DNA of 56,004 bases from Oscillatoriales cyanobacterium. GTDB taxonomy: Bacteria > Cyanobacteriota > Cyanobacteriia > CACIAM-69d. Position numbers and translations under genes: made by a program. The stretch's first letter is position 1. Every line of letters begins with the position of its first letter. The notes beneath the pieces are model-generated. The model had not been told where the DNA came from. It ran no database searches and saw only the letters and a program-made list of their open reading frames with translations. Positions 14,104 through 18,819 of the stretch are shown in pieces. The stretch spans positions 1 through 56,004 of the forward strand of contig RDXB01000036.1 in assembly GCA_004292515.1 (NCBI GenBank). The letters are read 5' to 3'.

Positions 14104-14715
14104 AGGACTGACCTATTCATTCAAAAATGAACCGGATTCAAATGTTCTATTAATAGTTTTAGACCCAATATACGAGTATTTAACTTTGACCAACCCCACT
14201 GTTAAGCATTACAGGAAGTCAAAAGACAAAGTTCATCTGTTCCTAGGAAGATGTCTGAAAAGTCGAAATTGATACTCCATATGCCCCAGCGATATATGCC
14301 CCAGCGATATATGCCCCAGCGATCGACGCAGGCAAGGGGCTTGAGCATCCTGCTTCCACAACCAATAGTGCTTGGTTCATGCCAAAAGAGACGTTCTAGA
14401 CATCCTCTAACTGATTTTTTGCAAACGCCCTTTCAAAGCTTTACCTGGCGTGAATTTTGGACAGTGTTCACCCATAAACTCAGTGTCACGCTCCACTGCC
14501 CACCCACAGATCCCAGACGAATACCAAATATCCACCCGCGAGTGGCCACCCGTACCCCAGACCAGGCTAGCACCGCTTCCAGGGTGAGTCTTCCATCTGT
14601 TCAGATTGCCCTCAAAATTCAGCAAGTTGCGACTTTAGCAACATCAAAGTTGTAAAATAGCGCCTCAAGACCGGCCTCAACGGTTGATAGAGTCGAACCC
14701 TTAGGTACATTGCCC
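14104..14715. other. 612-bp intergenic region upstream of the transketolase-like gene
   Basis: This region divides the divergent GGDEF and transketolase-like genes and contains the miniature element at 14247-14407. Bases 14408-14715 show no gene. A TTGTAAAATAG stretch near 14649-14660 is a candidate -10 region for the downstream gene, about 50 bases before its start. Confidence 0.4.
14247..14407. mobile_element. Miniature element, type 1 ends (copy A, expanded)
   Basis: This 161-bp copy of the type 1 element starts GAAGATGTCTGAAAAG, and its right end is diverged (ACGTTCTAGACATCCTC). It is flanked by TAG on the left and TAA on the right, consistent with a TNA target. It differs from the two 131-bp copies by exactly 30 bases, because a 15-bp unit (ATATGCCCCAGCGAT) is present three times instead of once. 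Its central palindrome is decayed (AAGGGGCTTGAGCATCCTG). It encodes no protein. Confidence 0.8.
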
Positions 14716-16923
14716 ATGACCGCCACAACCCCCGCGCCCGTGACCCTGCCCGCTTTTTGCGAGGGCATTCAATACTTTGGTGAACCGAGACCGGAATTCG
14801 CGACCCTCGGTGTAACACCAGCAGTCAACGCGGAGACGGGGGCGATCGCCAATTCCAGCGACTTAGCTGCCGTGTTCCAAGCCCTGCTGGTCGCCGATGC
14901 CCTGCGCTATTTGACCCTACAAGTGACTGCCAGCAAGGAATCGGGTCACCCCGGTGGCTATGCCAGCGCGGCCGATGTGATGGCGGCGCTGACCATGTTG
15001 GGCTACAAGAACTTCACCACCGAAGTGGGCCACCATGCGCCCGGCTTTTACTCGCAGGTGTTCTTGGATCGATCGCTCGAAGCGATGGGCATCACGACGG
15101 TGCAGCAACTGCGCGATCGATTCCGCGAAACCCACGGACTGCTCGGCCACCTGTCGGGGCAAATCCCTGGTCTGCTGGCCCCCGCCGGCCCCCTCGGCCA
15201 GGGTCAGCACTTCGCCATGGCCGGAGCCAAGCTGTTTCCCGGCACGCTCTTCCCCGTGACGATCGGGGACGGTGGCCTGGGCGAACCCTACATCATGAGC
15301 AGCTTTGGCCACTTCAACACCGCTTATCCGCAGGCCACCAACTTCCTGCCGATCTTGGTTTGGAACGGCTACAGCCAAGAGCACCACAGCATGGTCTCCA
15401 CCAAATCCAATGCCGCCATGGAAGCCTATTGGCGCGGCAATGGCTTTGAAGAGGTGATTTTGGTGGATGCCAAGGCCTTTGATGATGCCGATCAACCGGG
15501 CGATTACGTTGATAGCACTCAGTTCTCCTTTGCCCAACGCATGGCCTTCACCCAAGCGATTCTGGAAGCCACCGACCAGGCGGCCAAGCTGGCCCTGGGC
15601 GGCAAGCTGACGGTGCTGATCGTCAAGCAACTGAAGGGCGCGGGTGTTCACAAGCGCGGCGCACAATCTCACAACCTCTACCCCGGTGACAACCTAGAAC
15701 GGGATTACATTGTGGCGGCCCTGAAGGAACGGGCCCTGTCGCCGGAAGCCTGGCAACTGGTGCGCACCAACTGCGAGCGATCGGGCGGTGGCCCCGGCGC
15801 ACAGGTGGCCGTCACCGAAAGCGTCCGACCCCTGGCGGATTTGGGCAAGCTCAACCTGGTGGAATTTCCCGCTGGCGAGAAGAAAGTTTCGACCACGGCC
15901 ATGGGCGATCTCGTCGTCCAAGTGGGCAAAGCCGATCCCGATTTCATCGTCACCAACGCCGACGGGAACGCCGCCTCGGGGATCAACAACATCAACGTGG
16001 GGCTGAAAATCGTCCACCCGACCACCGACGCGACCTACTTCCAACAACCCGATGGTCAGGTTTACGAACCCCTGAACGAAGATGCCTGCGCCGGTTTGGC
16101 GGTGGGTCAAGCGCTGTTTGGGGCGCGATCGCTCTGGTGTTCCTACGAGTCGTTCGCGATCAATGGTCTACCGATTTGGCAAACCGTCACCCAAGCCATG
16201 GCCGAACTGCGCCGCCCCGCCCCTGCCACGGTCTGCCTGTTCACGGCGGGCGCGCTGGAGCAAGGCCGCAACGGCTGGACGCACCAACGCCCAGAAATCG
16301 AAAACTACTTCGCGGCGATGATGCGCAACGGCAACATCTTCCCGCTGTTCCCCTGCGATGCGAACAGCACCCAGGTTTGCTACGACTGGGCGCTGGCTCA
16401 GGTGAACAAGGGGATCACGATTACGGTCAGCAAGTCGCCGCTGCCGATCGTCTCGACCTTTGAGCAAACGCGCCAAGCCTTGCGGGATGGCGGTTTTGTG
16501 CTGCAAGAAACGCCCGGTGAAAAAACCGTGGTCTTGGCGGTGATTGGCGACATGACCCTGACTCCGGCGATCGCAGCGGCGGAACAACTGGCGGCCCAGG
16601 GCATCGGCTCGCGGATCGTGTCGGTAATCAGCCCCCGTCGCCTGTACCGATCGACCGATGTGGCGGTGGAAATGTGCTCAGAACCCGATGCGCACTTTGT
16701 AGATGACGCAACGTTCGATCGGCTGTTCGGTGGTGATGCGTTGTTGGGTGTGACCGGCGGCACGAGCGCCATGCTGGAGCCGATCGTCCTCCGCAGCACG
16801 GCCCCGCGCGATGTGTTCGCCTGGAAACGCGGCGAAACGACGGCTACCGCTGGCCAACTGATGGGCCTCAACGGTCTGACGGCGGAAAACCTGGTGAAAC
16901 GGGCGATCGCGCTGCTGGGCTAG
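14716..16923 (+). CDS. ThDP-dependent transketolase/phosphoketolase-like enzyme
   Basis: This 735-residue enzyme is of the transketolase superfamily. The N-terminal ThDP domain has the helix SKESGHPGGYASAADVM, GPLGQG, and the ThDP/metal motif GDGGLGEP continuing to WNGYS. A pyrimidine-binding domain (about 430-590) and a C-terminal transketolase domain (about 590-735) follow. Sequences of this class are variously labelled phosphoketolase, transketolase or xylulose-5-phosphate epimerase in cyanobacteria. It is shorter than standard phosphoketolases (about 790-800 residues), so the exact reaction on xylulose-5-phosphate is not settled. ATG 14716 is preferred over TTG 14710. A hairpin follows at 16972-17005. 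Its last 113 coding bases (16796-16908) are repeated, diverged, at 17781-17893. Confidence 0.85.
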   Translation: MTATTPAPVTLPAFCEGIQYFGEPRPEFATLGVTPAVNAETGAIANSSDLAAVFQALLVADALRYLTLQVTASKESGHPGGYASAADVMAALTMLGYKNFTTEVGHHAPGFYSQVFLDRSLEAMGITTVQQLRDRFRETHGLLGHLSGQIPGLLAPAGPLGQGQHFAMAGAKLFPGTLFPVTIGDGGLGEPYIMSSFGHFNTAYPQATNFLPILVWNGYSQEHHSMVSTKSNAAMEAYWRGNGFEEVILVDAKAFDDADQPGDYVDSTQFSFAQRMAFTQAILEATDQAAKLALGGKLTVLIVKQLKGAGVHKRGAQSHNLYPGDNLERDYIVAALKERALSPEAWQLVRTNCERSGGGPGAQVAVTESVRPLADLGKLNLVEFPAGEKKVSTTAMGDLVVQVGKADPDFIVTNADGNAASGINNINVGLKIVHPTTDATYFQQPDGQVYEPLNEDACAGLAVGQALFGARSLWCSYESFAINGLPIWQTVTQAMAELRRPAPATVCLFTAGALEQGRNGWTHQRPEIENYFAAMMRNGNIFPLFPCDANSTQVCYDWALAQVNKGITITVSKSPLPIVSTFEQTRQALRDGGFVLQETPGEKTVVLAVIGDMTLTPAIAAAEQLAAQGIGSRIVSVISPRRLYRSTDVAVEMCSEPDAHFVDDATFDRLFGGDALLGVTGGTSAMLEPIVLRSTAPRDVFAWKRGETTATAGQLMGLNGLTAENLVKRAIALLG

Positions 16924-16971
16924 GGCTGTGACGCTTCCAGGGCGATCGTTGCAGTAAAAGTCCTATAGATG

Positions 16972-17005
16972 GGGGTATTATCTCGCAACTGCGGGGTAAT
17001 ACCCC
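16972..17005 (+). terminator. Hairpin after the transketolase-like gene
   Basis: GGGGTATTA (16972-16980) and TAATACCCC (16997-17005) pair perfectly around a 16-nt loop, followed by TTATA. It lies 48 bases after the stop codon and before mglB, which suggests mglB has its own promoter in 17006-17154. Confidence 0.6.
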
Positions 17006-17154
17006 TTATACCGAAGCTAGACTGCAACTGCTTAATAACACTCTGCTGAAGGAGTTATCCTGCACTTGCGGTCTAATACATAGTTGGGCTGCTTGAGGGC
17101 GCAAAAGAATAGAATATGTGGCTGAGTCGAGCCAATAACACTGGAGAAAGAACA

Positions 17155-17637
17155 ATGGTCAACCCGCAGATGGTCATGTACGAAGAGGAGTTCAATCAGA
17201 TCCAGAACGTCGTGGATCGCCTAGTCAAGGACGCGAACGCCAAAGTTGGCTTCATTGTCGACAAGAATGGCCAGCTCATCGCTGCCGGTGGCGACGTGGA
17301 CAACCTGGACACCACCTCTCTGGCTTCGCTGACCGCCGGCAATATCGCAGCGACCGGCGGCATGGCGAAGCTGCTCAAGGAAAACGAGTTCGCCACCCAG
17401 TTCCACGAAGGCGAGAGGGCGAATATCCACATGCAGCTCGTGGGCAACCGAGTAATCCTGGTCATCATCTTCGATTTGAAGTCGTCGCTTGGGCTCGTCC
17501 GCCTCCGGGTGCGCAAGGCGAGCGAAGAACTGAACCACATCTTCGAGGCACTGCTGCGAAAAGTTCAGGAGCCGGGCACAGACTCACCATTCGCCGAGAT
17601 CACCGATGAGGATATCGACAATTTATTCAATGACTGA
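17155..17637 (+). CDS. mglB: MglB, roadblock/LC7 GTPase-activating protein (orphan)
   Basis: This 160-residue roadblock/LC7 protein is very like myxobacterial MglB: MVMYEEEF near the N-terminus, DANAKVGFIVDKNGQLIAA, TTSLASLTAGNIAATGGMAK, the FHEG turn, SLGLVRLRVRKAS and an acidic tail SPFAEITDEDIDNLF. In Myxococcus, MglB dimers stimulate GTP hydrolysis by the Ras-like GTPase MglA at the lagging cell pole to set motility polarity. No MglA is nearby. A strong GGAGAAAG precedes the ATG at 17155 (a longer start at 17116 is less likely). The gene prefers AAG for Lys, lacks GCGATCGC motifs and sits between two diverged copies of the neighbouring gene's 3' end, all signs of transfer. Its partner GTPase must be sought elsewhere in the genome. 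Confidence 0.88.
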   Translation: MVNPQMVMYEEEFNQIQNVVDRLVKDANAKVGFIVDKNGQLIAAGGDVDNLDTTSLASLTAGNIAATGGMAKLLKENEFATQFHEGERANIHMQLVGNRVILVIIFDLKSSLGLVRLRVRKASEELNHIFEALLRKVQEPGTDSPFAEITDEDIDNLFND

Positions 17638-17780
17638 TCGACGGTCGACTCCGAGGCTGGGGCGTTTCGGTCATCCGTCCGAGCGAATCGCCGAACACTG
17701 CGGTGAACCGGATGCTGATGCCGCGTCAGCTTGAAACTACATTCCAGGTCGTAACCAGCGGCATTAGTGCCGGTTACCTT

Positions 17781-17893
17781 GCACGGCCCCGCGCGATGTG
17801 TTTGCCTGGAAGCGCGGCGAAACGACGGCGATCGCTGGCCAACTGATGGGCCTGAACGGTCTGACGGCTGAGAACCTGGTGAAACGGGCGATC
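17781..17893 (+). pseudogene. Duplicated 3' fragment of the transketolase-like gene
   Basis: These 113 bases align without gaps to 16796-16908 inside the intact gene, with about eight differences. Most differences are at third codon positions (GTGTTC/GTGTTT, AAA/AAG, CTC/CTG, GCG/GCT, GAA/GAG). The fragment has neither the start nor the true stop. Because the changes look selected at the protein level, the fragment probably came from, or once was, a functional related gene rather than a recent copying error. Together with the intact copy it flanks mglB as a direct repeat. Confidence 0.88.
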
Positions 17894-17958
17894 ATCTGCC
17901 CCTGGAGGTTGTCAAAACCATCTTGACGGCTTTATGCCACAATTGGCATATTGGGAAT

Positions 17959-18321
17959 ATGAACCCACCTCTAAAGCCCGTTGAATGGGTTGGCAGTGCC
18001 CTAGAAGATGTCAAAGCCTTCCCGGAAGATGTACGGCTAGTTGTTGGCTATGCTCTCTATCTAGCCCAGTGTGGTGAAAAACATCCTTCAGCAAAACCAT
18101 TGAAAGGGTTTAAAGGTGCGGGTGTTTTAGAAGTTGTTGATGACTTTGATGGTGATACCTATCGAGCAATCTATACGATTCGGTTAGCCGGAGTGGTATA
18201 CGTCCTACATGCCTTTCAGAAAAAATCAAAGCATGGGATTGCAACACCTCAACAAGAGATCAAGTTAATCGAAAAGAGACTACAACGCGCCAAAGAACAT
18301 TATTTAAATCACTATCAGTAG
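17959..18321 (+). CDS. HigB-type toxin (phage Gp49-like, RelE superfamily)
   Basis: This 120-residue protein has the Gp49/HigB arrangement: WVGSALEDVKAFPEDVRLVVGYAL, then KPLKGFKGAGVLEVV, then YRAIYTIRLAGVVYVLHAFQKKSKHGI and a basic helix. The strand VVYVLHAFQKKSK is the hallmark of this ribosome-dependent mRNA interferase family. It is followed 21 bases later by an XRE antitoxin, giving the toxin-first order of higBA modules. An in-frame ATG 36 bases upstream is possible, but MNPPLKPVEW fits the family better. It lies just downstream of the duplicated gene fragment, in the accessory pocket with mglB. Confidence 0.85.
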   Translation: MNPPLKPVEWVGSALEDVKAFPEDVRLVVGYALYLAQCGEKHPSAKPLKGFKGAGVLEVVDDFDGDTYRAIYTIRLAGVVYVLHAFQKKSKHGIATPQQEIKLIEKRLQRAKEHYLNHYQ

Positions 18322-18342
18322 TCCTTGAGAGAGGAAAGTATC

Positions 18343-18819
18343 ATGTCAAAAGTAGAGATCCAATCAGGTAGTGGAAATGTTTTTGCAGACTTGAATCTTG
18401 AGAATCCAACTGAATTATTAGTCAAAGCAGAATTAGCACGTCAAATTCAACATCTCATTGAGCATCAACAGATGACTCAGGCGATCGCGGCTGAAATTTT
18501 AGGTATTGATCAACCCAAAGTCTCAGCCCTCATGAATGGCAAGTTGTCAGGATTTTCTATTCCTCGACTCTTCCGTTTTCTAAACGCACTGGGCCAGGAT
18601 GTGGAGATCATCGTGAGGGAAAAGCCGCTGGCTCATGCCAAGGCTTCAACATCCGTCCGCACGATGCGCCGCCGATCATTGGCCTCAGCACGGCTCCGCG
18701 CAATATGGGAACGCAACCAAGCAGCGGCTGTCCCTCGACAATTGCGACAATTAAGCGAGAACAATGACAGAACAAGCGATCGTGATTCAGCAACAGAATC
18801 TGTGATTCAGGGACTCTAA
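18343..18819 (+). CDS. HigA-type XRE antitoxin with unusual C-terminal extension
   Basis: A helix-turn-helix XRE domain occupies about residues 28-90 ([16 protein letters not shown], then [20 protein letters not shown]). This is the family that neutralises Gp49-like toxins and represses its own operon. GAGAGGAAAG is placed well before the ATG at 18343. Usual antitoxins of this kind end near 95-105 residues; this one runs to 158 with a basic, low-structure tail ([19 protein letters not shown]) that looks like readthrough into non-coding sequence. The tail overlaps by four bases the 3' end of the convergent acetyltransferase gene. Confidence 0.82.

Follow-up and report, generated by a model that had tools for sequence, protein, structure and literature searches.

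A Polyangiaceae-type mglB gene separated from mglA in a foreign-gene slot of a cyanobacterial genome

In Myxococcus, MglB is the GAP of the polarity GTPase MglA, and the genes encoding the two proteins are usually adjacent. How, then, did an mglB gene come to stand alone in the genome of a cyanobacterium, and can it still be of use there? The window analysed here is the whole 56,004-nt stretch, which corresponds to one entire contig (C56) of a 3.98 Mb draft genome in 111 contigs, with a completeness of 99.78% and a contamination estimate of 0.06%. The host, a cyanobacterium, gave eight phycobilisome matches, and its species is represented by this single draft genome. For comparison purposes, we used five members of the same family (G001 to G005, comprising two congeners and three further genomes), a class-wide sample of 390 Cyanobacteriia genomes with a match threshold of E < 1e-10, and, on the donor side, a protein tree of 81 sequences, the orphan mglB product among them. 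The features discussed below are listed in Table 1.

The reading frame of the orphan mglB is open and intact, and its 160-aa product belongs to the Roadblock/LC7 family, as indicated by its match to Robl_LC7 (Pfam PF03259, E 1.2e-16). An alternative in-frame ATG located upstream, at 17116, would give a product of 173 aa. In a PDB search, the solved M. xanthus MglB structure 6h5b aligned with residues 4-159 (E 5e-66), and each orphan residue is numbered one higher than its M. xanthus counterpart. The C-terminal acidic helix of M. xanthus MglB makes contact with MglA (PMC6785124); its aspartates D150-D152 correspond to D151, E152, and D153 in our protein, and D154 and F157 to D155 and F158. Likewise, R115 and K120, which belong to the polar targeting tract of the M. 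xanthus protein (PMC6876712), are retained as R116 and K121. The equivalent of K14 is Q15, and glutamine also occupies this position in most of the Polyangiales aligned. Judging from these residues, the MglA-binding parts look competent, and the protein is predicted to have kept the fold of a Roadblock dimer that could bind MglA; the AlphaFold model was of low confidence (pLDDT 52.7) and was set aside. The leader, TGGAGAAAGAAC-A-ATG, is similar to the TGGCGGAGGAAC-G-ATG of the Sorangium and Polyangium mglB genes, so the ribosome-binding site probably arrived together with the gene, and no promoter-like site was found upstream. An earlier note, made from the letters alone, had described a complete 160-residue MglB with strong Myxococcus-like motifs and its own ribosome-binding site, and all three points of that description hold.

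Table 1. Features of the orphan mglB locus, with positions counted from the first letter of the window.
Feature	Position	Strand	Basis
Phosphoketolase/transketolase-like gene; its 3' end borders the insertion slot	14710..16923	+	ORF; weak XFP and transketolase Pfam matches; orthologues in G001, G002, and G004
Left copy of a direct repeat (113 nt), formed by the 3' tail of the phosphoketolase/transketolase-like gene	16796..16908	+	Repeat comparison
Host intergenic element with hairpin (16972-17005)	16940..17097	+	Similar elements in relatives
Leader with ribosome-binding site, like the Sorangium/Polyangium mglB leader	17139..17154	+	Sequence comparison
Orphan mglB, 160 aa, Polyangiaceae type	17155..17637	+	ORF, Pfam, protein/DNA identity, tree, PDB alignment
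Acidic C-terminal helix, codons 151-159 (D151 E152 D153 D155 F158)	17605..17631	+	Alignment; function from PMC6785124
Remnant of the mglB-mglA spacer; donor homology ends at the mglA start position	17638..17648	+	Sequence comparison
Right copy of the gene tail, 94% identical	17781..17893	+	Repeat comparison
Gp49-like (RelE/HigB type) toxin of a toxin-antitoxin pair	17923..18321	+	Pfam Gp49, E 5e-20
HTH antitoxin of the toxin-antitoxin pair	18325..18819	+	Pfam HTH_37, E 5e-27

Regarding the origin of the gene, the closest relative in the species-genome collection was the MglB of Minicystis rosea (95% protein and 85% DNA identity), with protein identities of 94% to Sorangium, 93% to Polyangium, and 91-92% to Labilithrix. 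In the protein tree, the orphan MglB was placed within the Minicystis/Sorangium/Polyangium clade with a support of 95 for the grouping. No other match was obtained among the 390 Cyanobacteriia genomes, and in G001-G005 the Roadblock domain had no match at all. At the class level, a Roadblock match was present in 115 of 291 genomes, a count that includes the host, and the native cyanobacterial proteins that were translated and aligned, from about half of 25 loci, were approximately 23% identical or less to the orphan MglB. The possibility of a native, vertically inherited cyanobacterial Roadblock protein was discarded on these grounds, and a search of plasmids and viral contigs as possible carriers returned no relative. 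The identity to Minicystis, the clade support, and the absence from other cyanobacteria thus argue for horizontal acquisition. The gain proposed in the earlier note is strongly supported by nearest relatives among the Polyangiales at 92-95% and by absence from the two congeners and all other sampled Cyanobacteriia; an old cyanobacterial clade with syntenic mglB genes, which would have spoken against it, was looked for and not found. Based on these comparisons, a myxobacterial origin and the orphan state of the gene are very well supported.

The partner gene was found neither beside mglB nor elsewhere. In the donor-type loci, mglA lies downstream of mglB in 78 of 80 cases, starting approximately 10-15 nt past the mglB stop in the closest relatives. 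The spacer that follows the orphan gene resembles that of Sorangium and Polyangium as far as the point at which mglA would begin; beyond it the similarity stops, and a search for an mglA remnant in 17649-17780 gave no match. In the host genome, the best hit to MglA (only E 0.027) was a Rup-type Ras-like GTPase, and no second mglB was found; the absence of mglA stated for this locus therefore extends from the contig to the whole genome. Queries from the Roc and Arf families brought up two small GTPases, on contigs C42 and C31, both taken as Rup type, along with large multi-domain proteins. Since the host has no MglA, the orphan MglB cannot perform its native GAP job. Adjacency is usual and not required, given that 421 of 749 MglB genes were coupled to mglA in the published survey (PMC4316618). 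The C31 GTPase adjoins a BON/OmpA protein, in keeping with the gene neighbourhood published for group 1 Rup GTPases (PMC4316618). This locus (L159 4106-8031; G000 contig C31) encodes the Rup-type GTPase beside a 974-aa protein with coiled-coil, BON, and OmpA parts, whose residues ~550-660 resemble a Roadblock/longin domain by eye, a likeness that Pfam did not confirm.

The surroundings of the orphan gene were compared with three loci in relatives (contig 16796-18819 against L102 2900-5891, L105 3300-6022, and L103 6042-8992). In G002, the order after the phosphoketolase/transketolase-like gene is AbiJ-type gene, copy of the gene tail, HNH endonuclease gene, and second tail copy, while in G004 a type II methylase and a restriction enzyme come next. 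In G001, a tail copy is situated beside a restriction-modification methylase on a different contig. The AbiJ and HNH endonuclease genes, the type II restriction-modification pair, and the toxin-antitoxin pair of the host together identify the slot 3' of this gene as a foreign-gene and defence hotspot. The orphan MglB itself had no match in the PADLOC-DB profiles, though the slot of the relatives carries defence genes. The two tail copies of the host differ at seven positions, six of them third codon positions, a pattern that ruled out local decay of a duplicated tail; judging from these differences, the right copy probably derives from the corresponding gene of a different lineage. No integrase was found between the tail copies, and a fixed recombination (att) site was rejected, as the start and end points vary among copies. 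The intergenic element that precedes mglB has a counterpart downstream of the same gene in G004 and, partly, in G002. A hairpin element of ~150 nt is dispersed in G004 (C7:29900, C9:592252, and C12:118111) and in G001, where one copy (L103 8687-8992) adjoins a methylase gene. The search of the host element against Rfam gave only a chance match below the threshold, corresponding to no Rfam family.

The base composition of the orphan mglB is partly shifted, with a GC3 of 0.78. The 14 closest relatives range from 0.86 to 0.98, while the neighbouring host gene has 0.76 and other host genes lie nearer 0.4-0.65. Changes specific to the orphan gene and pairwise dN/dS were counted in place of ancestral sequences or a nucleotide tree. 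Against six close relatives, 31 silent changes were unique to it, including 22 GC>AT and one AT>GC, and the lower GC3 and the GC>AT excess suggest that the gene has evolved for some time under a different base composition. Since some Polyangiales mglB genes have a low GC3 (0.47-0.71), an unsampled donor of lower GC could also account for these silent changes. At the protein level, approximately 7-8 changes were counted, with eight against Minicystis (V32G, S45G, K88R, I93M, V104I, S108L, K135R, A142T), and V32G, I93M, and V104I affect positions invariant in 80 relatives. The excess of silent over amino-acid changes suggests purifying selection, provided that the silent changes postdate the transfer; pairwise dN/dS against clade members was 0.025-0.043, with dS near saturation. 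The long tip of the protein tree (0.11, compared with a median of 0.024) and the changes at invariant positions could mean relaxed constraint. Lysine is mostly encoded by AAG (six codons, compared with two AAA), as described previously. The absence of HIP1, also described, was confirmed as an observation and dropped as evidence of foreign origin: at a density of 1.70 per kb, the chance of finding none in 480 nt is 0.44, so the absence is uninformative.

Considering these results, a lone mglB moved from a Polyangiaceae myxobacterium related to Minicystis, Sorangium, and Polyangium into the cyanobacterium, where it landed in the slot immediately 3' of the phosphoketolase/transketolase-like gene. 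The severance from mglA occurred at, or a few bases from, the mglA start. Expression is probably achieved via read-through from the upstream gene, and selection would, on balance, have kept the protein in the role of a dimeric adaptor of a non-canonical kind, with a partner from the host or an invader. Retention by selection, considered by itself, appears to us an evenly poised question, while the joint claim of myxobacterial origin, orphan state, intactness, and retention is moderately probable.

Among the other readings, the one closest to this proposal is that mglB is a neutral passenger, captured by chance in a busy slot, with neither partner nor function and with its decay yet to come. 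The lack of MglA in the host, the turnover of foreign genes at the slot, the absence of mglB from the congeners, the substitutions at otherwise invariant positions, and the lack of a promoter-like site upstream all agree with it. It is opposed by the ratio of silent to amino-acid changes in a frame free of stops and frameshifts, unless most of the silent changes arose in an unsampled lower-GC donor, and we therefore consider it a serious, if somewhat doubtful, explanation, with a slight preference for an orphan retained by selection. An assembly or contamination artefact, in which a piece of myxobacterial DNA was misjoined into the contig, is extremely unlikely. Other bacteria are often present in cyanobacterial cultures, and the case concerns one gene in one draft assembly, but host sequence is found within ~60 nt on the upstream side and ~140 nt on the downstream side, so that two chimeric joins in ~0.7 kb would be needed. 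Moreover, the contamination estimate is low, neither mglA nor a second mglB accompanies the gene in the genome, and its composition is partly shifted.

A host partner is unlikely to be one of the Rup-type GTPases, on C42 or C31, with MglB rewired to control polarity, pili, or another surface process. The host does carry these two small Ras/Roc-type GTPases, small GTPases are regulated by Roadblock proteins, and the genome encodes PATAN (DUF4388) proteins, whose genes sometimes lie close to mglA/mglB; additionally, it has been suggested that group 1 Rup proteins may rely on an unknown GAP for a catalytic residue (PMC4316618). However, MglA itself holds the catalytic Arg and Gln (PMC6876712), so MglB is not expected to supply a missing residue, and none of the Rup GTPases in the published survey was coupled to MglB (PMC4316618). 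The orphan gene is also not near either small GTPase gene, and the C31 GTPase, at least, has its own neighbour of a conserved type. The earlier note's proposals of rewiring to a host GTPase and of a role in polarity, gliding, or type IV pilus function thus found no positive evidence, the gene being situated in a defence hotspot and not beside motility genes. It is very unlikely that the 3' end of the phosphoketolase/transketolase-like gene captures small non-autonomous cassettes, mostly defence genes and each with a copy of the gene tail, and that MglB came in as one such cassette and, in the absence of MglA, took on a new role as a defence or stress protein built on the Roadblock domain.

When compared to known systems, the retained orphan shares with the MglB proteins of the coupled mglBA loci of Minicystis, Sorangium, and Polyangium an identity of 92-95%, the length, the Roadblock domain, the acidic helix, and a similar leader. 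It differs from them in having no mglA nearby or elsewhere, in its cyanobacterial host, in its lower GC3, and in V32G/I93M/V104I. The M. xanthus protein (PDB 6h5b, 6hjm, 6izw), the GAP of MglA, has in common with it the MglA-contact helix and the R115/K120 equivalents, in contrast to Q15 at the K14 equivalent and a host without MglA. Native cyanobacterial Roadblock proteins have the same Pfam domain but are shorter (~123-131 aa), and some are encoded beside MglA-like GTPases. Wuichet and Sogaard-Andersen reported 328 MglB genes away from mglA, some perhaps originating via duplication or horizontal transfer, and at the date of their survey (2014) none of the orphan MglB proteins had been studied by experiment (PMC4316618). 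Our gene is likewise not near mglA; here the donor family, the missing partner, and the slot are identifiable, and the whole genome is without MglA. The locus therefore represents a natural experiment, in which a nearly unchanged GAP from a known donor family resides in a genome without its GTPase, and it offers a clean test of whether a two-part switch can lose one half and have the other retained and put to new use. If the orphan mglB has been kept by selection, MglB must have an MglA-independent function.

The slot also marks a site of single foreign gene exchange, mainly of defence genes, in this cyanobacterial group. Two of the tail copies belong to different species and end at contig 17893 and at L102 5579; each breaks off at GGGCGATC, with AT as the next letters, and this end falls inside a HIP1 site. 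In its first 120 nt (14720-14840), the phosphoketolase/transketolase-like gene differs at 31 sites from both congeners, which are identical to each other there, and on this comparison the gene looks recombined.
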